24,212 nucleotides of DNA from a virus: the IMG/VR virus record IMGVR_UViG_3300024346_000502, positions 1-24,212 of that record; one strand, written 5' to 3'. A program made the translations under genes and the position numbers. Position 1 is the stretch's first letter; every line of letters starts with the position of its first letter. Positions 8,389 to 19,067 of the stretch are shown here, piece by piece. The notes beneath the pieces were generated by a model. It was not told the origin of the DNA. It did not search any database and saw nothing but the letters and a program-made list of their open reading frames with translations.

Positions 8389-9108
8389 TTAATTAAAATT
8401 CTTTTTTTCCCAAGCCATGCTTCTATATGCATTTGGATATAGTAAGTCTCCACGCTTGTTTTGAGTATATATCTCTTCTGGATCGTGATTTAAATCAATA
8501 ACCATCTCCCAAGACTCTCTTTTAAATGGTATAGCCTGAAGTATTGGAGTTCCTTGTTTTATAACTCCTTCAAAGTTTTTTTCTAAAAAAAATGAGTTTA
8601 AACCATCAGTTAGGAATTTGTCTGTATCTACAACAGCCTCTATTGCTTTCAATGGAGAATATTCTTGATGCATGGGAGACATAAACAAAGTACTGTATCC
8701 TGGAGGGGTTCTTGTCATCCACATAGGATTAATCCTAAAAAGATCTTTTAAATAAATATCAAAGTTAGCAGGATAATGAGATATATGATCTGATGTGTGC
8801 CATCCAATTATTCTGTTTTTTATTTTTAAAAACTCTTCTGGAATATTGCATTCTGATTTACCATTCTTTGTATTTATATATAGGTCAACTGGCATTCTTA
8901 AAAAATACCCCATAGACAAAGAGTCAAAAAATGGAAGACATTTTTTTACTGTTAAGTTTGCATCTCTTGACTCATTCTCCTTGCTAAAAGAAGATGGCTG
9001 ATTTTTATACCAAGAAGGTATATATTTTGTACACGAAACTGGCTCTGGAAACAAGTACTCAAAATTTTTCACTGGCAAAGGAAAAAATTGAATTAAGTTA
9101 TTAGACAT
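8389..9108 (-). CDS. DUF6065-like protein, paralogue 1
   Basis: Function unknown. The 239 residues share an order of motifs with two other genes of this island (14622-15398 and 13218-13928): a Cys-Pro pair near 57-59 (KKCLPF), MGY at 66-68 followed by a conserved Asp75, PPGYSTLFMSPMH (135-147), VVDTD (159-163), and GTPILQAIPFKRESW (186-200). Closest is the 258-residue gene, which has PEGYSALFMTPMN, VVDSD and GTPYLQVLPFKRENW at matching places. The N-terminus carries IPSWYK, also shared with that gene (IPEWYK). No signal peptide or membrane segment. It is the last gene of the oxygenase island, separated by 35 bases from its upstream neighbour. The assignment to DUF6065 rests on memory of the family pattern, which is clearest in the 236-residue paralogue, so the family link is moderate. 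The relation to the 258-residue gene is strong. Confidence 0.7.
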   Translation of the reverse strand: MSNNLIQFFPLPVKNFEYLFPEPVSCTKYIPSWYKNQPSSFSKENESRDANLTVKKCLPFFDSLSMGYFLRMPVDLYINTKNGKSECNIPEEFLKIKNRIIGWHTSDHISHYPANFDIYLKDLFRINPMWMTRTPPGYSTLFMSPMHQEYSPLKAIEAVVDTDKFLTDGLNSFFLEKNFEGVIKQGTPILQAIPFKRESWEMVIDLNHDPEEIYTQNKRGDLLYPNAYRSMAWEKKNFN

Positions 9109-9143
9109 CTTGTATATTACTTTCTAATATAACAAAATAAATA

Positions 9144-9770
9144 TTAGTGAATCCAGTGTTGTGGAACCATGATCTTTTCACCACTCTTGACTAAGTGTGC
9201 AGTGTGATGATATGGTGGTGATGGAGGAAACACAATAATACTTCCAGCCTTTGGCTTAACTGCAAAATGATAGGCTGAAGGATCTGCAGTTGCAAAGTCT
9301 TCATTAGGAGTTGGCCCCTGAATAGGACCCTTTGGATCTCTAATTGTGAAAGAAATTTCTCCACCTTCATAATCGTCATTAAGGTACATTACAAAAGAAA
9401 CCTTAAGTCTTTCATCTCCCTCTTGCTGATCAAAGTGAGCACCCATAAATGTTCCAGCCATATACTTCTTAATTGGATATGTTGGGAAAAGTTTTGGCTC
9501 TTCTGTTATTCCGTGTGCTGCTGCGTAGTCTCTTGCTACATCATCAAAAGCCTTTCTTAGTGTTTCGTAGATGTATGTGTTTTTTTCATCTGAAGGATCT
9601 GCCTGTGAGATACTCTTATCTGTTCCATAAACATACTCTTGTCCACTACACGCCATCCACTCGCCCCAAGGGTCTTGATTATCATTCTCAATTGCCTCAA
9701 CAAGTTTCTTTGGGTCTTCAATTACGTTTGTGTAATAGTAAACCTTTTCTTCAAGTATTTCTCTATCCAT
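9144..9770 (-). CDS. 2OG-Fe(II) oxygenase (prolyl 4-hydroxylase type)
   Basis: This 208-residue protein belongs to the 2-oxoglutarate and Fe(II)-dependent dioxygenases, which hydroxylate a substrate while decarboxylating 2-oxoglutarate. The facial triad is visible as His112-Phe-Asp114 (GAHFDQQ) and His189 in HHTAHLVKSGEK. The residue ten places after the distal His, which binds the 2OG carboxylate, is Lys199. Lysine is also used there by collagen-type prolyl 4-hydroxylases. Between them lies the core strand YLNDDYEGGEISF (129-141) shared by all oxygenases of this island. The protein ends unusually early, at PQHWIH. AAGGAG precedes the ATG with good spacing, and the preceding gene ends 11 bases upstream. 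The substrate is unknown; peptide hydroxylation is favoured by the family resemblance. Confidence 0.88.
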   Translation of the reverse strand: MDREILEEKVYYYTNVIEDPKKLVEAIENDNQDPWGEWMACSGQEYVYGTDKSISQADPSDEKNTYIYETLRKAFDDVARDYAAAHGITEEPKLFPTYPIKKYMAGTFMGAHFDQQEGDERLKVSFVMYLNDDYEGGEISFTIRDPKGPIQGPTPNEDFATADPSAYHFAVKPKAGSIIVFPPSPPYHHTAHLVKSGEKIMVPQHWIH

Positions 9771-9781
9771 TTTGTATCTCC

Positions 9782-10444
9782 TTAGTATTTATTTTTTTCA
9801 TAAAACCCTGTGACCTTCATAAAGCCTACAGTTACATATCTAATGGGTCCTTCTCCAACAGTTCTAACACCGTGCTCGTACTCTTCGTTTCCTGGAAATA
9901 CAAGCAAGGTCCCTGGCTTTGGCCTTAGATCTGAATCCTTTTTATTTTTAAAGAACAGAGTTCCATCCTTATAGTCGTCATTAATATAAAGTATAGCAGC
10001 ATATCTAATAGATGGGTCTGTGTGCTGATCTGTGTGTGACTTTAACTCAACACCTGGCTGCATTCTTTGCATAGTGCCAAACCCAGCAAGTTCAAGACTT
10101 TCGTCTGCTAAAAGTAGTAACTTTCCAAGCCTTTCTTGAAGAGTTTTGCAAATTTCTTCGCTTGTAATATCTAAATTTTTATCTTCCCAGCCTACCGTAA
10201 TTTCAAACTTTCCTTCTGCTACCAAGTTATCCACATCGTCTCTTCCAAATTTTTCCATGCAAAATCTAGCAAGATTCTTAGTATATTCAATAGACCAATC
10301 TTCATTGTCAGTTGTTTCAATTATTTTTAGAATAGCCTGAAGTTCTTCTTCGTTTAAAAAATCTTTTACAAACAAAACATGATCATGAAAAACTTCAACA
10401 TCATACCCAGCCTCTTCAAATTCTTTTTTTAAAAAAACTTCCAT
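9782..10444 (-). CDS. 2OG-Fe(II) oxygenase
   Basis: This 220-residue oxygenase has the triad His137-Thr-Asp139 (LKSHTDQHTD) and His191 (EEYEHGVRTV), with Arg202 in IRYVTVGF as the 2OG anchor. The core strand is YINDDYKDGTLFF (153-165), with KDG replacing the EGG seen in its neighbours. A Pro-Gly turn and LLVFPGNEEYEHG follow, typical of the double-stranded beta-helix. The N-terminal half contains VLFVKDFLNEEELQAI, the substrate-domain helix common in phage prolyl-hydroxylase-like proteins. The ATG directly abuts the stop of the preceding gene. It is clearly a diverged paralogue rather than a recent copy of its neighbours. Confidence 0.88.
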   Translation of the reverse strand: MEVFLKKEFEEAGYDVEVFHDHVLFVKDFLNEEELQAILKIIETTDNEDWSIEYTKNLARFCMEKFGRDDVDNLVAEGKFEITVGWEDKNLDITSEEICKTLQERLGKLLLLADESLELAGFGTMQRMQPGVELKSHTDQHTDPSIRYAAILYINDDYKDGTLFFKNKKDSDLRPKPGTLLVFPGNEEYEHGVRTVGEGPIRYVTVGFMKVTGFYEKNKY

Positions 10445-11191
10445 CTATAAGTCACCCACTTTATACTTATTGCCGTCAGCATCTAGTTTCCAACCTTGTT
10501 TTAATAACTCTTGCCATTCTGCTCTTTCAACTTCTTGCTTGGCTCTAGTTTCTTTCATTTCTGCTGCCCAAGCATCTCTAACTTCTTGTGGGTAGTCTGA
10601 TTCTTCTCTGTCATCCCAGAAGGAACCTATTGTATACCTTACTCCTTTTGTTATTAGGGTTACTTCGTGCATATTATTAAATCCCCCGTCAAAAACAGCA
10701 AGCATTCCAGTTTGAGGCTTAATCTCTATATCTTGATCTGGAAAACGAAGAAGCCCACCTTCAAAATCATCATTGAGATATAAAAATCCTGCGTATCTAC
10801 TTCTTGTAAATGCTCCAGACTTTCCGTGTTCATCTGTATTATCTGAGTGCTTTCTGGCATAGGCTCCTGGCTCCCACTTCTGAGTGTGGTATCCAATTTT
10901 TGAAATAATCTTAGGATCAAGGTCATGAACTGATGCTATTGCTTCTGGCATTTTATTTTCAATATCTGAAAACATTGTTGGGCTTAGATCAGCATCAAGA
11001 ATTTCTTGATCATTATCTTGTGGTAACACAGATGAGTATGACTCATAAAAAGATATTGGCATCCAAGACAACTTGCCTGATTCTGCTTGAGCATCAAGTG
11101 CTTGAATCATTTTCTTACAGTCTTCTTTGCTTATAAAGTCTTCATAAACAACGATATCTTTTGTTATTCTTTTTTTGTTTTCTAGATTCAT
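10445..11191 (-). CDS. 2OG-Fe(II) oxygenase with C-terminal charged helix
   Basis: This 248-residue oxygenase has the triad His115-Ser-Asp117 (ARKHSDNTD) and His175 (NNMHEVTLITKGVRY), with Arg185 as the 2OG anchor. The core strand is YLNDDFEGGLLRFP (138-151). After the catalytic domain, about 55 residues follow that are rich in Glu, Arg and Trp and look helical (RDAWAAEMKETRAKQEVERA); the other island oxygenases lack this. The tail could be a substrate-binding or dimerisation element. The ATG at 11191 overlaps the TGA of the preceding gene (ATGA), so translation is coupled. Confidence 0.88.
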   Translation of the reverse strand: MNLENKKRITKDIVVYEDFISKEDCKKMIQALDAQAESGKLSWMPISFYESYSSVLPQDNDQEILDADLSPTMFSDIENKMPEAIASVHDLDPKIISKIGYHTQKWEPGAYARKHSDNTDEHGKSGAFTRSRYAGFLYLNDDFEGGLLRFPDQDIEIKPQTGMLAVFDGGFNNMHEVTLITKGVRYTIGSFWDDREESDYPQEVRDAWAAEMKETRAKQEVERAEWQELLKQGWKLDADGNKYKVGDL

Positions 11192-12066
11192 CTTACTCTT
11201 ACTCCTTCTGGTATTTCAAATCTATTTGGGATTGTCTTATTATACTCCTGGATTATGTCATTTTGCATGCTTGCCCAGACCTCTTTCCCAAACTCATTTT
11301 CTTTGTCAAACCATTCTTGACTGCCTATACTATACTTTCTCCAGTACATTCTTGCAAAATACTTCTCATTTTCATAGGAAGGAAACACTCCGTGAAGATA
11401 TACGGTATCACCTTTCCTTAATACCTCTGGGTGTCCAGAAGGAAATACTAGCCAATCGCCTGCCTCTGGCTTATATTTTATAAGTTCTCCATTTACAAAA
11501 AAGTCAATTTCTCCACCAACGTAGTCTTCATTAAAATATGCATTTGCTGTTATAGCAAACTTATATCCTGGGCTAGGGATTGGCTCTCTTATAAAGTCAG
11601 AATGATATGTCATAGACATTATGTCTTCCATATTTTTATGATATTTGCAAATTGATGGGCCATACATTCTCCATAAAGGAACAAGTTCTCCATCTTTTGT
11701 CTGTATATTTTCTGTTTTGTCAAAATCAAAATCTTTTCCAAATTTTGAAATATAATGATCTGTAACCTTGTCAAAACCTTTTGCCAACTCTAGTAAGAAG
11801 TATTTCTGATCATTTTGTACTTGATTGTAAGTTTCTATAGTCTGTAGATTTGTATAACTCCAGTCTCTATTAAAATATTCTCCTGCTGGATAATTAATAT
11901 ATTTTCCAAAGATGGACCATTCTGACCACTCACCAAAAACTTTATCACCTTCAACTTCTGAAGAGTTTTTTACAATATCATACATCTTTGTTGGATTTTC
12001 AAAAACATTTTTGTAAACAACAATATTTGGATATATCTCTACAAACTCAAACTCTTCATTTGTCAT
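11188..12066 (-). CDS. 2OG-Fe(II) oxygenase, longest member of the island
   Basis: This 292-residue protein has the triad His155-Ser-Asp157 (MTYHSDFIRE) and His225 (VYLHGVFPSY). Arg239 in YFARMYWRKY is the likely 2OG anchor, displaced by a few residues compared with the others. The core strand is YFNEDYVGGEIDFF (177-190). It has an extended N-terminal region (about 1-130) with several aromatic clusters and a C-terminal helix of about 50 residues. It is the most divergent oxygenase here and may use a different substrate. ATGA overlaps join it to the genes on both sides. Confidence 0.82.
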   Translation of the reverse strand: MTNEEFEFVEIYPNIVVYKNVFENPTKMYDIVKNSSEVEGDKVFGEWSEWSIFGKYINYPAGEYFNRDWSYTNLQTIETYNQVQNDQKYFLLELAKGFDKVTDHYISKFGKDFDFDKTENIQTKDGELVPLWRMYGPSICKYHKNMEDIMSMTYHSDFIREPIPSPGYKFAITANAYFNEDYVGGEIDFFVNGELIKYKPEAGDWLVFPSGHPEVLRKGDTVYLHGVFPSYENEKYFARMYWRKYSIGSQEWFDKENEFGKEVWASMQNDIIQEYNKTIPNRFEIPEGVRVR

Positions 12067-12737
12067 GGCTGTCTATCACCAGTATGCTTAACAATTTCCC
12101 AGAAGAACGGACAAGTAAACCTTAGTCCACTCTTTATCTCTGTTACCCCATGGATATAGTTCTTATCTCCAGGGAAAAAATATGCTGCACCCTTCTTAGG
12201 CTTAAATTTAACACCTTGAAGAGGGAAGTATAATTCTCCACCCTCGTAATCATCATTAAGGTAAAATAAACTTGAAAGATCGTAATTAGGGAAGTCGTTA
12301 GGAAGTCCAGCATCTGGACCTTCATGAAGTTCTTTATCGGCATGTGGCTTTTGAAACTGTCCTGGTAGCCACTTTACGATTGTTGTCCCTGTTGGTATAA
12401 CTTCAACCTTATAAAACTCTTCAACGATTGGCTTTAATCTTTGAAACAATCCCGCAATAACTGGGGCAATTGCTGGATCATTTTTGTCTAGAGTTGGGCT
12501 AGTTGCAACTCTGTCTTTCCAGTAGTCTGAGTCATAAACGACTGTACCATTTTCGTTTACATGGCTTTCTGTTACATCCCAGATAGTTAAAGACTTTGCA
12601 GCCTTTTCTAAGAAGTCTATTTCTTCTTGAGTCATAAAGTTTTCTAACTCAACGATCATATCTTTACTACTTCCGAACCATCCAGAAGGAGTCATAGACG
12701 GCTTTCTTACTACAACAGAGGCATTTATATTTTCCAT
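12063..12737 (-). CDS. 2OG-Fe(II) oxygenase, first gene of a sub-operon
   Basis: This 224-residue oxygenase has the triad His132-Ala-Asp134 (FQKPHADKELHEG) and His196 (YIHGVTEIKSGLRF), with Arg206 as the 2OG anchor. The core strand YLNDDYEGGELYFP (159-172) is a near-consensus version. After the first triad pair comes a short loop rich in Pro, Gly and Asp that probably covers the active site. The ATG at 12737 has no Shine-Dalgarno site and stands 6 bases after TGATATAAT, so this gene may be made from a leaderless mRNA. It then drives the following oxygenases by coupled translation. The gap to the preceding gene is 28 bases and holds a 6-bp palindrome. Confidence 0.88.
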   Translation of the reverse strand: MENINASVVVRKPSMTPSGWFGSSKDMIVELENFMTQEEIDFLEKAAKSLTIWDVTESHVNENGTVVYDSDYWKDRVATSPTLDKNDPAIAPVIAGLFQRLKPIVEEFYKVEVIPTGTTIVKWLPGQFQKPHADKELHEGPDAGLPNDFPNYDLSSLFYLNDDYEGGELYFPLQGVKFKPKKGAAYFFPGDKNYIHGVTEIKSGLRFTCPFFWEIVKHTGDRQP

Positions 12738-12743
12738 AATTTG

Positions 12744-12752
12744 ATTATATCA
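12744..12752 (-). promoter_or_regulatory. Extended -10 promoter, leaderless start inside the oxygenase island
   Basis: The minus strand reads TGATATAAT, six bases (CAAATT), then ATG at 12737. There is no clear -35 box. This would give the downstream oxygenases transcription independent of the island's first promoter. Confidence 0.5.
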
Positions 12753-12768
12753 TAGGGTTTGTACCCTA
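12753..12768. repeat. Palindrome next to the internal island promoter
   Basis: TAGGGT (12753-12758) and ACCCTA (12763-12768) form a perfect 6-bp inverted repeat with a 4-base centre, directly upstream of the extended -10 and including the TAG stop of the preceding gene. It could be an operator or a weak hairpin, and it is short enough to arise by chance. Confidence 0.3.
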
Positions 12769-13221
12769 CAATGTCCTTTCTATTTCTAGTTGTTTTAAGA
12801 ATCTTTCTATACTAAATCTCCAGTTATCTTTTGCAAAAGAAGTCACGATCTTAATACATACATCTTCATAATCTTCTTTGCTTAATTTATCTTTTAAACC
12901 ATGAAGTGCCTCAACAGTGTCTATGTAGTTTTGCCTAACAAAAGATGGATCTCCTGCATGATTTCTTTTTAAAACCTTTGTAAGAGTATTTCCAGATGGC
13001 TGGTATAAAGACACAGTTAGATAGTCTTTAGCAAATCCTGCATCTTGATACATTTCATAACCTTCTAGCGCTTGCTGAATATTATCAAAAGAGATTATTG
13101 ATCTTACTGGAGACTCTCCATCTCTAGATACAGTTATCATATAATGACCAACCTTGCCTTCTTTAGCATTTTTAAGATACTCATTTACCATATCGTCGTG
13201 TGTCATATTTAGTTCACTCAT
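12766..13221 (-). CDS. Hypothetical protein of the oxygenase island
   Basis: I do not recognise this 151-residue protein. It begins with a charged helix (THDDMVNEYLKNAKEGK). A beta-strand/helix unit then runs from GHYMITVSRDG through SIISFDNIQQALEGYEMYQDAG to YLTVSLYQPSG, which resembles a small alpha/beta sandwich. The C-terminal half is helical and charged, with two Trp/Phe-containing helices. No metal-binding triad is present, so it is not a degenerate oxygenase. It overlaps the preceding DUF6065-like gene by ATGA and is followed by a new promoter, so it closes the first part of the island operon. A partner or adaptor role for the enzymes is possible but has no direct support. Confidence 0.65.
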   Translation of the reverse strand: MSELNMTHDDMVNEYLKNAKEGKVGHYMITVSRDGESPVRSIISFDNIQQALEGYEMYQDAGFAKDYLTVSLYQPSGNTLTKVLKRNHAGDPSFVRQNYIDTVEALHGLKDKLSKEDYEDVCIKIVTSFAKDNWRFSIERFLKQLEIERTL

Positions 13222-13928
13222 TGTGCACCAGTATTATCTTTTACACTAAGTTTTAAAGTTTTTACTTCATGTGATCCAAGAGACTCTTGTTTTTCATTAA
13301 CAGCATTTCTATACCAGTCAGTCCATTCTCCAGAAGAGTTTAAAACCTGTGCTGCTTCGCCGTAAGCAATATTTGCTTCTAGTCTTTTTCTATCTTCATC
13401 TCTATACTCTACAATGTTTATAACTGTGTTATTTAGTTGTGTTAAAGATATTGGAATAATTGTTGCAACTGGTGTTCCAGCCTTTATTGTAACCTTTTTA
13501 TTTGCAACCTTTGCCTTAATAGCCAGTGGTAATGGGTTGTCATAAAATGATGTACTTATTAATGATGACATTACTTCAAACTCATCACTAAAATAGTTTA
13601 CTGGATTAATAGTAAATATACTAACATCTTTATCTGTTCTAAATATTAAAGATGTATCTAGGCTTACTGATGACTGCCCTCTTCCAGAATATGCTCTATC
13701 TGGGTTAAATATGGTAACGTGGTCTTGCGTCTGATCATTTATACCGTCCCAAATAAACTCAATATCTTCTTTGCAGGAAAGACTATAACCTATGACGTTT
13801 GCCTGAGTTACTGGAAAACATCTATAAGCGTGGTTTTCTGAGGTAGCATCCATCCAGTCTCTTTTAATAGACATAGGAGTTATTTCAAATATACAGCCTG
13901 GAGCCTTTTCAACCGATATGTTGTACAT
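13218..13928 (-). CDS. DUF6065-like protein, paralogue 2 (closest to the family pattern)
   Basis: Function unknown. The 236 residues carry the features I associate with DUF6065: RDWMDAT (23-29), AYRCFPVTQAN (34-44) followed by GYSL (47-50), a downstream acidic pair and IEFIWDG (56-62), FRTDKDVSIFTINPVNYF (96-113), and IKAGTPVATIIPISL (148-162). The same skeleton occurs in the two other DUF6065-like genes of this island: Cys-Pro then Gly-Tyr, a strand ending in P-V/M-N/H, and a Gly-Thr-Pro turn before a Pro strand. The C-terminal 75 residues are helical and charged and differ from the paralogues. The gene overlaps the flanking genes through TAATG (upstream) and ATGA (downstream), so it is co-translated with the oxygenase before it. 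Confidence 0.75.
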   Translation of the reverse strand: MYNISVEKAPGCIFEITPMSIKRDWMDATSENHAYRCFPVTQANVIGYSLSCKEDIEFIWDGINDQTQDHVTIFNPDRAYSGRGQSSVSLDTSLIFRTDKDVSIFTINPVNYFSDEFEVMSSLISTSFYDNPLPLAIKAKVANKKVTIKAGTPVATIIPISLTQLNNTVINIVEYRDEDRKRLEANIAYGEAAQVLNSSGEWTDWYRNAVNEKQESLGSHEVKTLKLSVKDNTGAQ

Positions 13929-14611
13929 TACTCATTGTCCCACTTTGGGTCATACATATCTGGTGTGTGGTATTTCTTGCTGTAATCAAGCATTGTTACA
14001 ATAGAGTACTTTGTTCCAGAATGAACTGGCATTGCCTGATGAGGATACATAAAATTAGAAGGGAATATATAAAGATCTCCAGCCTCTGGCTTTATGTTCA
14101 AACCCTGTAGCCTAAAGAAAAGTTCTCCGCCTTCATAGTCATCATTAACATATGCAACAAGAGATACTGTACAATTATATGAATAACCATGGTCGTGGTG
14201 TTCCTTAAAGTGCTGTCCTGGACCATACTTAATAAAGTTAAATGCTTCCCAATATTTTAGAGGCATAATATTATGGTCTCTTCTATAGTCTTCAACTGCT
14301 GCGGATTGTGCATCGTAAATATCCTGCCATAAAGACTGCAACTTAAGAGAATCTTCACTCTTGTCTTGTTCTATGTCTGTTTTCTTAAACTTGAAGTCTG
14401 CACAGTCTCTATAGTCTGGCATTAATTGTTGATATCCAACATATGCTGGCATCCAGTGGTATCTCTTGCCTTCTGGTGACAACTCTCCATAACCAGCAAC
14501 TGATCCAAGGGTGTTCTCAAGTCTATTGATTACATCAAACTCTTTTTTAATAACATCCTTGTAGCAAAAGATTCCATTGCCAAGATCTTTCTTCTCTGTC
14601 CATGTTTGCAT
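13928..14611 (-). CDS. 2OG-Fe(II) oxygenase, close paralogue of the 15398-16111 gene
   Basis: Counting from the ATG at 14611 (227 residues), the triad is His138-His-Asp140 (FKEHHDHGY) and His191 (YPHQAMPVHSGTKY), with Lys201 as the 2OG anchor. The core strand is YVNDDYEGGELFF. It is strikingly similar to the oxygenase two genes upstream: EAFNFIKYGPGQHF here against EAFNFVKYEGEGKHF there, and YNCTVS in both. I chose the ATG at 14611 because AAGGA lies 7 bases upstream and the preceding gene ends at 14622. The longer reading to 14671 has no ribosome binding site and would overlap that gene by 50 bases. Confidence 0.88.
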   Translation of the reverse strand: MQTWTEKKDLGNGIFCYKDVIKKEFDVINRLENTLGSVAGYGELSPEGKRYHWMPAYVGYQQLMPDYRDCADFKFKKTDIEQDKSEDSLKLQSLWQDIYDAQSAAVEDYRRDHNIMPLKYWEAFNFIKYGPGQHFKEHHDHGYSYNCTVSLVAYVNDDYEGGELFFRLQGLNIKPEAGDLYIFPSNFMYPHQAMPVHSGTKYSIVTMLDYSKKYHTPDMYDPKWDNE

Positions 14612-14621
14612 AATATATTCC

Positions 14622-15398
14622 TTATCTATATTCTCTTCGTGACCAGACTTTATTTTTGTATACCCCGCCATCTGGCTGGCGATAAAACTGCATGTTCTTT
14701 ACCATTTTATCATAAATTTTAGATTGATCTAATATTTCTATTTCATGCTCCCAGTTTTCTCTTTTAAAAGGAAGAACTTGGAGATACGGAGTTCCCGCTG
14801 GAATGGTTCCTTCCCATCCTTCAGCAATAAAAAACGGAAAACTTCCAAGGAGGTGAACTTTGTCTGAATCAACAACACCAGTAGTATTTAAGAATGGTAG
14901 ATCAAATCTATTCATTGGTGTCATAAATAGAGCACTATATCCTTCTGGTAACTCTAAACCCCAATCAGCAGACCAAGCAAAATGGTGCTTGTAATATCCA
15001 AGTGGGTGTTCAAACTGTGGCATTGGTGGTCTTTGTGTACAAAAGTCTTGATACTTTGTCTCTTCAACCTTTACATTAATTATTCCTTGAGCATTTTTAA
15101 AAAATGTTAGATCGCAAGGGGTTTTAAAAACATATCCAGTTGAAAATGCATCCATAATTGCAGGACACGCTTTCCAAGTTGGAATCTTTCCATAGTCATC
15201 GGTAGTTCCCTCTTTTGGAAATGGACAAACCTCTTTTGGTGCTTTATAATAATCCCCATTTGGCATTTTTGCAAATCTGTCTGCATCCTTGTACCATTCT
15301 GGAATTACACCTTGAGTTGGACCTGGAACAGACTTACTTTCTTTATTTAACCATGGCCTAAATGATCTAAATATTGCAACATTTGGGTTTAAAGACAC
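14622..15398 (-). CDS. DUF6065-like protein, paralogue 3
   Basis: Function unknown. The 258-residue protein shares most motifs with the 8389-9108 gene: IPEWYK (32-37), ACPAIMDAFSTGY (77-89) with a following PCDL, PEGYSALFMTPMN (151-163), VVDSD (175-179), and GTPYLQVLPFKRENW (202-216). An extra segment with several Cys residues (VCPFP near 58, DFCTQ near 119) is not in the shorter paralogue. The start is a GTG that overlaps the TAG of the preceding oxygenase (TAGTG), with AGGA 8 bases upstream. It lies between two closely related oxygenases, so an oxygenase plus DUF6065-like pair appears duplicated here. Confidence 0.73.
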   Translation of the reverse strand: MSLNPNVAIFRSFRPWLNKESKSVPGPTQGVIPEWYKDADRFAKMPNGDYYKAPKEVCPFPKEGTTDDYGKIPTWKACPAIMDAFSTGYVFKTPCDLTFFKNAQGIINVKVEETKYQDFCTQRPPMPQFEHPLGYYKHHFAWSADWGLELPEGYSALFMTPMNRFDLPFLNTTGVVDSDKVHLLGSFPFFIAEGWEGTIPAGTPYLQVLPFKRENWEHEIEILDQSKIYDKMVKNMQFYRQPDGGVYKNKVWSRREYR

Positions 15399-16111
15399 TA
15401 CTTATGTCCTAATTCATTAATGTCTGTCATTACGACAACACAATACTTTGTCCCCGATTTCATTGGTAATGATGCATGTTCATATATATAGTTTGATGGG
15501 CAAAGAATTATGTCTCCAACTTTTGGAGTATGAGTATATCCATCAAATCTTGGGAACCTGATCTCTCCGCCTTCATAGTCTTCATTGATATAAATTACTG
15601 CAGAAACCGTACAGTTATACGCTGGTCCATGATCCGCATGAATATTAAAGTGCTTTCCTTCTCCTTCATACTTTACGAAGTTAAATGCTTCATAATAAAC
15701 AACATTTATTCCCCAATATCTTGCATAGTCGTCAACACAAAACTTTAACTTTTGATATATCTCTTCATGCAAGTCAAGTAACTCAGAATTATGTTCATCT
15801 CTTGGGCCAAGGTTTTCTTGCTTGTATTTAAAGTCTACAGCATCTCTAGCCTTTTTAATTGGAATATCTGAGTTAGTAACCTTTGCTTCTGACCACTGAT
15901 ATTTCCCGCTACCGCCCAAGTTTGACTCAAGAGTATTTATATATCTTTCGGAATCTTGTTTTGAAAAAACATTTCTATATATATTAATTCCAAGTGCTGG
16001 ATTTTCAACCAAAATGTTGTTCCCTATTTGTCTATCTGAGTATCTGTTTGCTGCTGTTTCTGATCTATCCTTAGTAAACCAAGGAGTTTCATTTTCATCA
16101 TATACTGACAT
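15398..16111 (-). CDS. 2OG-Fe(II) oxygenase, first gene of the island
   Basis: This 237-residue oxygenase has the triad His158-Ala-Asp160 (FNIHADHGP) and His212 (YEHASLPMKSGTKY), with Lys222 as the 2OG anchor. The core strand is YINEDYEGGEIRFP (174-187). The N-terminal 40 residues (NETPWFTKDRSETAANRY) are polar and may be a flexible extension absent from its paralogue at 13928-14611. AGGAAT precedes the ATG. It is the first gene after the strong terminator that closes the tail operon. A TGGTATACT box within that terminator could start its transcript. Lysine at the 2OG site groups it with two of its neighbours rather than with the Arg-type members. Confidence 0.88.
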   Translation of the reverse strand: MSVYDENETPWFTKDRSETAANRYSDRQIGNNILVENPALGINIYRNVFSKQDSERYINTLESNLGGSGKYQWSEAKVTNSDIPIKKARDAVDFKYKQENLGPRDEHNSELLDLHEEIYQKLKFCVDDYARYWGINVVYYEAFNFVKYEGEGKHFNIHADHGPAYNCTVSAVIYINEDYEGGEIRFPRFDGYTHTPKVGDIILCPSNYIYEHASLPMKSGTKYCVVVMTDINELGHK

Positions 16112-16200: not shown

Positions 16201-16968
16201 TCACGTTGCTCTTGGGCTCCACTTGTTTCCACCAAACGATGGGAAGAACGGTGGGAAGAACGGTGGGAAGAACGGGAAGAATGGGAAGAATGGTGGGAAG
16301 AACGGGAAGAATGGTGGGAAAAATGGAGGGAAGAATGGAGGGAAAAATGGCGGGAAGAATGGGAAGAACGGAGCAATAGTAGTAACATTGTTAGATGCTG
16401 GTGATGCTGCAGAACTTCCATTAGCATTTGTTGCTACAACTGTGTATGTCTGTGCTGTATTTGCTTCTTGAGGAATAGTTGCAGATGTTCCTGCTACTGA
16501 ATTACTCTTTCCATCTGATGATGACCAGGTGTATCCAGTAATTGCCTTTCCACCGTTTGATGGTGCTGTCCAGTTTAATGTATCTTGATCAACTCCTGCT
16601 GTTGCTGTTGGTGCAGATGGGGTTGCTGGTACAGTGGTTACTGTAACTGCAGATGAAGCATCAGAAGCAGCAGATGTTCCTGCTGCGTTACTTGCTGTTA
16701 CAGTAAATGTTGGTGTTGCTCCAGAAGCAATTCCTTGAACAATAATTGGAGAAGATGCTCCAGTTGCTGTCTGTCCTGTGCTTGCTGTTACTGTAAAGGA
16801 GGTAGCAGCAGGTGAGAGTGCTGGTAGAGAAAATGATACAGAAACTGCACCATTAGTAAATGCCCGTCCTGTTCCTATGTCTGTTCCAGAAACACCTGTT
16901 GGCTTTAGTGGTTCCAAAAAGTCATTTGATGCTTGGGACCTTCTACCTGATTTCTTACCTGCTGCCAT
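16201..16968 (-). CDS. FN3-like structural protein with C-terminal Phe/Pro repeat
   Basis: This 255-residue, presumably virion-surface protein has three parts. Residues 1-20 are basic and polar. Residues about 22-198 form two fibronectin-III/Ig-like beta domains rich in Thr, Ser and Ala, with a typical GKAITGYTWSSSDGK turn (140-154) and YTVVATNANGSSAAS (175-189). Residues 200-243 consist only of Phe and Pro in FFPP and FFP units, followed by PSFGGNKWSPRAT. The repeat is encoded by 12- and 9-base units. Without FN3 context such a tail would look like low-complexity noise, but the frame is open, the domain before it is good and a terminator follows directly. AGGAG precedes the ATG. Binding, adhesion or assembly roles are possible. 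The prolines could be hydroxylation targets of the adjacent oxygenases, which is inference. Confidence 0.8.
   Translation of the reverse strand: MAAGKKSGRRSQASNDFLEPLKPTGVSGTDIGTGRAFTNGAVSVSFSLPALSPAATSFTVTASTGQTATGASSPIIVQGIASGATPTFTVTASNAAGTSAASDASSAVTVTTVPATPSAPTATAGVDQDTLNWTAPSNGGKAITGYTWSSSDGKSNSVAGTSATIPQEANTAQTYTVVATNANGSSAASPASNNVTTIAPFFPFFPPFFPPFFPPFFPPFFPFFPPFFPFFPFFPPFFPPFFPSFGGNKWSPRAT
16240..16371 (-). repeat. Tandem 12/9-base repeat encoding the Phe/Pro tail
   Basis: On the plus strand, units such as GGTGGGAAGAAC and GGGAAGAAT repeat with small changes over about 130 bases. They encode FFPP and FFP units on the minus strand. Unit length varies only by whole codons, so the frame is kept. 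Confidence 0.9.
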
Positions 16969-17000: not shown

Positions 17001-19067
17001 TTACGCTGTCAAGTCGCCGTAGACAACCCATGTATTTGCTGCTCTCTTGAATAGAGTTGCAGATGACCAAGTTGTACGAAGTTTCAAGCCAGGTGTTGCG
17101 TTAACAGTTACTCCTGCTGCTCCTGCAATTGTAACCTGTCCAGTTGATGTCTGAAGGATATCAAGTGATGTTCCAATTGGGAAGTTTAGAGTTGCATCTG
17201 TTGGGATTGTAAGAGTCATCGCTGAAGATGATCCCATTTCGATCAAGTCATCTCTTTCAGTTAGTGCTGAAAGTGTGTATGATGCTGTCTTCTGAATGAT
17301 TGGAGTACGTGATGGTACACCTTCCATTGTCTGTGTACCGTCTGAGAATGCTACACCTGCTGCTGCTGCTGTAACTAGTCCAGAGAAAGTTGGAGCATTT
17401 GCAACAGAGATTGTCTCTCCAGTTTTTACAATGTTTGTACCAGCAATTACAGCCTCAGAAGCATTAAACTGTGAGTATGAAATTTCTGTTGTTCCAACTG
17501 TAATTGTTCCAGTTGTGCTCAAGATATATCCCTTAGAGCCATTTGTTGAACCAGATGTTACGAATACGAAGTCACCTGTTGCCAACTCTCCTGCAGGATT
17601 ATTATCTGCATCTGCTGCACGGGTTACAACCCAAGGTGCTCCAGCGCTTCCTACTGCTGTTACTGTGTAAACACCATTTTGCTTTGCGTCTGTCTGTGCA
17701 CGAAGAAGAATTCTGTTGCCAACAGAAACTGATGCTCCATCAATTGTTCCAATAGAACCATTTGATGCTGCTGTAATTGTTGCACCAACGCCATTTGTTC
17801 CGTTGTTATATGTACCAGCAAGATTTCCTGATGTTGCTGCAACTACTGGTTGGTGGAAGTTGATTCCTGCTGCAAGTCCATCAACATACTGCTTTGTTGC
17901 TGCATGTAGATCTGATGTTGGTGCACCTGATAGTGTAAGTGCTCCTGTTAGTGTTCCACCAGAAAGATTCAACTTAGCATTAAGTGCTGTCTGTGCAGCA
18001 GTTGATACTGGCTTATTTGCATCTGAAGTGTTATCAACATTTCCAAGGCCAACTGATGACTTTGTAAGTGCTGCAACGGCTGTTGCAATCTTTGAATCTG
18101 CTGCAGTGCCTGCTGCTGTAATTGCATCTGCTTCTGCAGTGTCTGCGTAAGACTTTGTTGCAAGAAGTGATGTATCTGCAATTCCATGTACATTTGATGT
18201 ATCATCATTGTGTGTTGATACTGCATCATCTGAATACTGTTTTGTTGCAATTGTTGAACTGATATCGAATCTCTGATCAACAGAGTTCCAGTCAATTCCA
18301 GTTCCTGCAAGTGCTTCCTGATCTACAGTTGCTTCTGAAACTGCATTTGAAAGATCTGATTGTGTAACAAGAACAGATGTATCTGGAATACCGTGTACGT
18401 TTGCTGTTTCTGCATTGTGATCAGAAACATCTGTTAGCAATGCTAGTGCTGATGTGTCTGCGATTCCATGTACGTTTTCTGTTTCTGAATTGTGTGCTGA
18501 AAGATCAGCCTGTACAACAAGAAGAGATGTATCTGCGATACCATGAACTAATGTTGTATCTGCAGTGTGTGTTGAAAGTGCTCCAGAAGCGTCATCTCGT
18601 GCTCCCTGAACTTCTGACTTAAGTGCTAAATCTGCTGTGTCCTGAATACCATGTACTAGGGTTGTGTCTGAGTTGTGTGTTGAAAGTGCATTAGCAGCGT
18701 CTGTTGCTGCAGTATTAACATGGCTCTGAAGTGCTAGAGCAGATGTATCTGCAATGCCGTGAATCATAGTTGAATCATTTATGTGTGTTGTAAGATTTTG
18801 TCCAACTGTTGCAAAGAACTGTGGGTCATCGCCAATTGCTGCTGCTAACTCATTAAGAGTATTTAGAAGATCTGGGGCACCATCAATAATTGCTGATAGT
18901 TCTGCTGCATTAGCAAAGTACTGTAGAGCAGTCCATGCTGAGGAGCCGTTACCCATTTTAAATTTATTTGTGTCGGTTTCAAAACCAATTTCACCTGCTG
19001 CCAATACTGGGTTTGCAGCCGTCCATTGTGCTGCAGTTCCTCTGCGCTGTTGCATTCTTGTTGCCAT
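17001..19067 (-). CDS. Tail fibre-like protein with Mtd-type N-terminus and HGI-DT repeats
   Basis: This 688-residue modular fibre has these domains in order: an N-terminal module like that of the major tropism determinant (RRGTAAQWTAANPVLAAGE, 8-26, then KMGNGSSAW); a LLNTLNELAAAIGDD helix (67-81); six copies of an H-x3-T-x2-(V/I)-HGI-x-DT motif beginning at residues 95, 131, 167, 192, 217 and 286; the fibre signature SSVGLGNVDNTSDANKP (337-353); the GALTLSGAPTSDLHAATKQY module (375-394); and a beta domain of about 140 residues with GTNGVGATITAASNG and ENGVYTV-like text (KQNGVYTV). The C-terminal beta-rich domain (about 590-688) may be the receptor-binding or trimerisation tip. AAGGAG precedes the ATG by 9 bases. 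It is probably a virion appendage; the exact place is not known. Confidence 0.85.
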   Translation of the reverse strand: MATRMQQRRGTAAQWTAANPVLAAGEIGFETDTNKFKMGNGSSAWTALQYFANAAELSAIIDGAPDLLNTLNELAAAIGDDPQFFATVGQNLTTHINDSTMIHGIADTSALALQSHVNTAATDAANALSTHNSDTTLVHGIQDTADLALKSEVQGARDDASGALSTHTADTTLVHGIADTSLLVVQADLSAHNSETENVHGIADTSALALLTDVSDHNAETANVHGIPDTSVLVTQSDLSNAVSEATVDQEALAGTGIDWNSVDQRFDISSTIATKQYSDDAVSTHNDDTSNVHGIADTSLLATKSYADTAEADAITAAGTAADSKIATAVAALTKSSVGLGNVDNTSDANKPVSTAAQTALNAKLNLSGGTLTGALTLSGAPTSDLHAATKQYVDGLAAGINFHQPVVAATSGNLAGTYNNGTNGVGATITAASNGSIGTIDGASVSVGNRILLRAQTDAKQNGVYTVTAVGSAGAPWVVTRAADADNNPAGELATGDFVFVTSGSTNGSKGYILSTTGTITVGTTEISYSQFNASEAVIAGTNIVKTGETISVANAPTFSGLVTAAAAGVAFSDGTQTMEGVPSRTPIIQKTASYTLSALTERDDLIEMGSSSAMTLTIPTDATLNFPIGTSLDILQTSTGQVTIAGAAGVTVNATPGLKLRTTWSSATLFKRAANTWVVYGDLTA
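18138..18785 (-). repeat. Six HGI-DT repeats in the 688-aa fibre
   Basis: Six copies of a motif like THNSDTTLVHGIQDTADL occur with residue spacings of 36, 36, 25, 25 and 69. The linkers between them are Ala/Ser-rich and probably coiled. Copies are similar but not identical at DNA level. Confidence 0.75.

Follow-up and report, generated by a model that had tools for sequence, protein, structure and literature searches.

A conserved cluster of 2OG-Fe(II) oxygenase and DUF6065-like genes follows an F/P-repeat gene in tailed phages

RESULTS

Gene content of the locus

The window, by which we mean the whole stretch of DNA analysed, is the complete 24,212-base viral record IMGVR_UViG_3300024346_000502 of IMG/VR, a fragment of an uncultured, aquatic tailed phage. 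Its portal protein is 45 to 48% identical to those of Streptomyces phages of the Stanwilliamsviridae; a search for a T4-type portal gave no match, and the controls gave none either. Open reading frames (ORFs) were called with a plain longest-ORF rule. Eleven ORFs, A to K, were recovered where the original prediction had placed them (Table 1), and a profile search of the window showed that a class II RNR gene adjoins this cluster. Neighbouring cluster genes overlap by 1 to 4 bases or are separated by gaps of 0 to 35 bases, so that the description of a nearly gapless cluster stands apart from the start of gene I, which as first called (13928-14671) produced a 50-base overlap with its neighbour. 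Because the orthologs are 227 aa long, the start was moved to an internal ATG. Promoter and terminator scans of the cluster gave results near the shuffled expectation, and the argument for co-transcription therefore rests on gene spacing; the cluster genes are probably co-expressed.

TABLE 1 Genes of the cluster and its upstream neighbours in the window
Gene	Product	Coordinates	Strand	Active site (H/D/H/2OG anchor)	Evidence and occurrence
	Protein with Mtd_N domain (major tropism determinant N-terminus)	17001..19067			Beside cluster; gene varies among relatives
F/P	F/P-repeat protein, 255 aa, candidate substrate	16201..16968	-		Weak fn3 match and FFPP/FFP tract
K	2OG-Fe(II) oxygenase, 237 aa	15398..16111	-	H158/D160/H212/K222	PF13640 E 1.3e-9; 34/34 complete relatives
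J	DUF6065-like, 258 aa	14622..15398	-		phrog_7084 E 1.4e-32; dUTPase-like fold in model, pLDDT 93
I	2OG-Fe(II) oxygenase	13928..14611 (start moved from 14671)	-	H158/D160/H211/K221 (numbering of longer ORF)	PF13640 E 3.6e-15
H	DUF6065 protein, 236 aa	13218..13928	-		PF19541 E 1e-25; dUTPase-like motif-3 Asp lost
G	Function unassigned, 151 aa	12766..13221	-		No Pfam match; optional, 16/34 relatives
F	2OG-Fe(II) oxygenase, 224 aa, most conserved	12063..12737	-	H132/D134/H196/R206	PF13640 E 1e-8; model pLDDT 94
E	2OG-Fe(II) oxygenase, 292 aa, most divergent	11188..12066	-	H155/D157/H225/K235	PF13640 E 6e-5, below cut-off; full triad
D	2OG-Fe(II) oxygenase, 248 aa	10445..11191	-	H115/D117/H175/R185	PF13640 E 3.2e-9; triad
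C	2OG-Fe(II) oxygenase, 220 aa	9782..10444	-	H137/D139/H191/R202	PF13640 E 6.8e-11; triad
B	2OG-Fe(II) oxygenase, 208 aa	9144..9770	-	H112/D114/H189/K199	PF13640 E 1.3e-10; triad
A	DUF6065-like, 239 aa	8389..9108	-		phrog_7084 E 1.8e-37; optional, 3/34 relatives

The oxygenases are diverged and resemble prolyl hydroxylases

PF13640 matched all seven oxygenases, six of them above the curated cut-off and E at 24.4 bits against a cut-off of 27, and the H-x-D motif, the distal H and the K/R 2OG anchor are present in 7/7. Profile searches thus placed the enzymes in the 2OG family, and the seven intact active sites that had been read from the sequence were all found. Local identity among the seven is about 21 to 41%, the closest pair being I and K (41%), which rules out recent gene duplication and agrees with the earlier description of diverged enzymes.

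Structure modelling of the oxygenases covered gene F, one of the seven. The best PDB fold matches of the model were algal, viral, bacterial and human prolyl hydroxylases, with Z of about 16, and no TET enzyme occurred among the best 50. According to the sequence profile of the F family, prolyl 3-hydroxylase 1 (P3H1) was the top match (E 1e-15) and TET-like enzymes came near the bottom (5.6e-4); gene F scored 20.4 bits against the Tet_JBP profile, below the cut-off of 34.9. For gene I, a PDB sequence search gave Bacillus anthracis prolyl 4-hydroxylase and LH3 as the best matches. The closest relatives, by fold and profile for gene F and by PDB sequence match for gene I, are prolyl hydroxylases, and the cluster oxygenases are probably of this type, while a fold alone does not prove a substrate. 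A role in anti-phage defence was set aside, PADLOC having returned just a generic "2OG" model.

DUF6065-like proteins have a predicted dUTPase-like fold

A, H and J had been described as three related DUF6065-like proteins. All three match phrog_7084, but only H passes the Pfam DUF6065 cut-off of 26.6 bits (PF19541; H, 91 bits; A, 13.5 bits; J, no match). A sequence search of the PDB with gene J gave no credible match, and the fold is visible from the model alone: the top Foldseek rows were all dUTPase/dCTP deaminase, with VIA Z scores of up to 9.4. Gene J shares with that superfamily the GVVDSD sequence and the motif-4-like IPAGTPYLQ, at an identity of only about 8 to 17%; GVVDSD and the motif-4 glutamine are kept across the A/J group. 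In catalytic motif 3 (G-V-I-D-x-D-Y), the Asp is kept and the Tyr is missing in the A/J group, whereas the Asp is lost in the H group. What is proposed for gene J from its model is a dUTPase-like fold, not a dUTPase. As judged from these residues, enzyme activity of H is unlikely, and the pattern suggests that H, at least, acts in binding or assembly.

DUF6065 also occurs without oxygenases in two relatives carrying a similar portal (L417 and L433), which makes it a separable partner. In HF2-type haloviruses, profiles likewise detected DUF6065 (PF19541)/phrog_7084, as a lone gene beside tail genes and RNR without an oxygenase (L100 11851-12693 and L101 11857-12741); unlike the window, the haloviruses checked had no PF13640 match and no FFPP.

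The cluster is conserved among relatives

A search of IMG/VR with the J protein gave 222 related stretches, and in all 25 of the larger records searched PF13640 matched four to eight times and phrog_7084 two or three times. We then compared 34 relatives whose loci span the cluster from K to RNR. The gene order was K-J-I-H-(G)-F-(E)-D-C-B, with five to eight oxygenases each; the records are metagenome fragments, and gene counts vary with locus length. K, H, F, C and B were present in 34/34, and several relatives had a short-chain dehydrogenase gene in the slot of gene A. Since the order is essentially kept in 34 relatives, the cluster is far beyond chance. The conserved neighbourhood that had been anticipated was thus found, and the proposal of a dedicated modification system is well supported by it; what the proposal had not linked to the system is the adjacent F/P-repeat gene, beyond position 16111.

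An F/P-repeat gene lies directly upstream

The F/P-repeat gene is contiguous with the cluster, on the same strand and 89 bases away. In its product, fn3-like domains precede a 43-residue FFPP/FFP tract, after which comes a short variable C terminus. The FFPP DNA pattern has four exact matches in the window, at 16241-16359, against 0 expected. Codons of the tract vary synonymously (TTC/TTT and CCA/CCG/CCT/CCC) while the peptide repeats, which rules out a chance or low-complexity-DNA artefact. In about 40 relatives the tract is at the same position and is followed by a polymorphic, often Cys-rich C terminus.

Several variants of this region were seen. Four F/P proteins (L063 7871-9169, L458 1-969, L469 2-1006 and L473 477-2036) appear by eye to have an intein/Hint-like end ("...TELLTPTGLVKAKDLQIGD...GGFLVHNK"), which suggests self-processing or anchoring after the tract; a Pfam search of the L063 protein did not confirm an intein/Hint-like domain. 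In relatives, a gene for a small Cys-rich DUF6171-like protein of about 76 to 88 aa (L046 930-1160 and equivalents; match just below the cut-off) often separates the F/P gene from that of oxygenase K. One tail-like protein (L095 1457-2875, record G007) contains a short stretch of FFPP as well as long TP repeats.

Oxygenase genes track F/P tracts

Viral contigs were chosen by the FFPP DNA pattern alone, and 50 records among the matches listed, not a random sample, were searched. PF13640 was found in 46 of the 50, at least four copies in 36 and phrog_7084 in 31; the four records without PF13640 are fragments. Among 50 contigs with TPTP repeats, used as a comparison, PF13640 was found in five and at least four copies in none (Fisher test, 1e-17). 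In 77 cases among the matches listed, single-oxygenase loci included, an oxygenase falls inside the stored flank; the one nearest the FFPP gene was no more than 3 kb away in 72 of them, lay downstream in 75 and was on the same strand in 68. This exceeded within-locus permutation, with 47 observed against a mean of 33 and a maximum of 46 in 2000 permutations; for loci with one or two oxygenases, 15 were observed against a mean of 7.6 and a maximum of 13.

A portal like that of the window, 46 to 93% identical, was present in 18 of the 50 FFPP records among the matches listed. Others, such as G028, G032 and G071, lack a PF04860 match and differ in gene content, and in these, too, oxygenases and a DUF6065 gene come after FFPP. 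Portal relatives were also fetched with an alignment placing the Streptomyces phages first, and 38 were kept, each with at least 6 kb upstream. An F/P tract was found in 10/10 of those with at least three oxygenases and in 0/28 of the remainder, which have none to two. GFFSPP or LFFSPP repeats replace FFPP in three of the ten, indicating that the F/P character is kept despite sequence change. On the portal tree, a quick tree with some rows picked for having FFPP, the traits change seven to eight times, and across six independent pairs the agreement was complete or almost complete (median p 0.03).

The FFPP pattern gave only 17 matches in 84,980 prokaryote genomes, and the long genuine tracts among them were on contigs with the same oxygenase or DUF6065 genes. 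Four bacterial MAG contigs with FFPP and phage-like oxygenase/DUF6065 genes (L347, L351, L358 and L359) look like misbinned phage contigs. The presence of the oxygenase cluster follows that of the F/P-repeat gene, and the association is strong. Linked inheritance of the adjacent tract gene and the cluster could be the source of part of this correlation.

DISCUSSION

We consider it fairly likely that the cluster encodes a prolyl-hydroxylase-type line with DUF6065 accessories and that its main substrate is the F/P-repeat protein encoded directly upstream. We infer both the enzyme-substrate relation and the residue modified: during assembly, several enzymes of differing specificity would hydroxylate prolines in the FFPP/FFP or GFFSPP repeats, and perhaps phenylalanines of the F/P repeats as well. 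The F/P-repeat protein is probably tail-associated and fibre-like in the virion, and the benefit would be that a highly hydrophobic tract becomes, once hydroxylated, a fibre that is soluble, stiff or adhesive. A broader proposal is held more tentatively, namely that several phage lineages make a hydroxyproline-rich, possibly hydroxyphenylalanine-containing F/P fibre with a dedicated hydroxylation line, the DUF6065 proteins acting as substrate-holding or assembly factors, as a counterpart of collagen or mussel-adhesive maturation.

Collagen P4H/P3H1, Chlamydomonas P4H and the viral collagen hydroxylase vCPH of PBCV-1 share with the cluster the DSBH fold, the HxD...H centre and the 2OG anchor. 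Prolyl hydroxylases of repetitive structural proteins are the closest structures for gene F, and their known substrates include proline-containing repeats. The phage system differs from the collagen, algal and PBCV-1 enzymes in having seven diverged copies in one operon, and its candidate substrate is an FFPP/FFP tract rather than Gly-X-Y or Ser-Pro. Against the F/P protein as the substrate, the number of enzymes, seven, looks large for a single repeat this simple, and some of the enzymes matched by gene F in structure act on other proteins.

Large numbers of oxygenases in a phage are not in themselves a novelty. Cyanophages carry 8 to 24, mostly dispersed, with 24 2OG-Fe(II) oxygenases reported in S-SCSM1 (PMC9602691), and 8 to 13 copies were detected in those searched here. 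The cyanophage enzymes belong to the same superfamily, match PF13640 as the cluster does and in some cases lie beside tail-fibre genes; unlike the cluster they are mostly dispersed, and no DUF6065 cluster was recognised. FFPP tracts were absent from the four records of Kyanoviridae that were searched, of which three are isolate genomes and one is a single-cell contig, so such enzymes have other uses, which is a further point against the F/P-substrate reading. Roles in host metabolism or DNA repair have been proposed for the multi-copy cyanophage enzymes (PMC9602691; PMC3037559).

The cyanophage copies also fit a reading in which the oxygenases hydroxylate host proteins, such as EF-Tu or proteins of the ribosome, and so reprogramme the cell, the F/P gene being a mere neighbour; among the matches of gene F are bacterial prolyl hydroxylases whose structures were solved with EF-Tu (4iw3 and 5v7y). 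We regard this as rather unlikely, since it leaves unexplained both the tracking of tracts among the portal relatives (10/10 versus 0/28) and the adjacency in single-oxygenase loci. It is slightly less probable still that the F/P gene and the cluster are simply co-inherited at one tail-variable site with no enzyme-substrate relation. Their spacing and shared strand fit such a cassette, and tail genes do swap as cassettes, but the association recurs with one or few oxygenases in records of different gene content, with variant repeats and in about six independent co-changes in the tree test.

Nucleotide or DNA base modification by TET/JBP-like oxygenases with dUTPase-fold partners was prompted by the adjacent class II RNR, the dUTPase-like fold of DUF6065 and the sub-threshold Tet_JBP match of gene F. 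It appears improbable, because the gene F profile places TET-like enzymes far below prolyl hydroxylases, the best folds include no TET, the motif-3 Asp is lost in the H subgroup, and base-modifying partner genes were not recognised within the cluster. Moreover, the RNR-to-portal arrangement also occurs in Streptomyces phages without any oxygenase: the Stanwilliamsviridae Coruscant and Annadreamy share the synteny RNR, LamG or long protein, small protein, portal, and, unlike the window, have glycosyltransferases upstream of RNR and neither PF13640 nor FFPP. That 2-oxoglutarate consumption by the oxygenases alters host nitrogen or energy metabolism, as has been proposed for the multi-copy cyanophage enzymes (PMC3037559), is very improbable here, since it would lead one to expect neither a single operon with seven diverged active sites nor a tie to F/P repeats.

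Searches of the open-access literature found no paper on F/P repeats with hydroxylases and none naming DUF6065, a family that here gains a fold and a genomic context. The functions of multi-copy phage 2OG oxygenases have been described as uninvestigated (PMC9602691), and a simple sequence signature now names a likely substrate for them. If the F/P-repeat protein is indeed hydroxylated in this way, phages employ enzyme lines to hydroxylate a repeat fibre after translation, and hydroxylase specificity could then be studied usefully in a system where seven related enzymes share one short repeat as their target.
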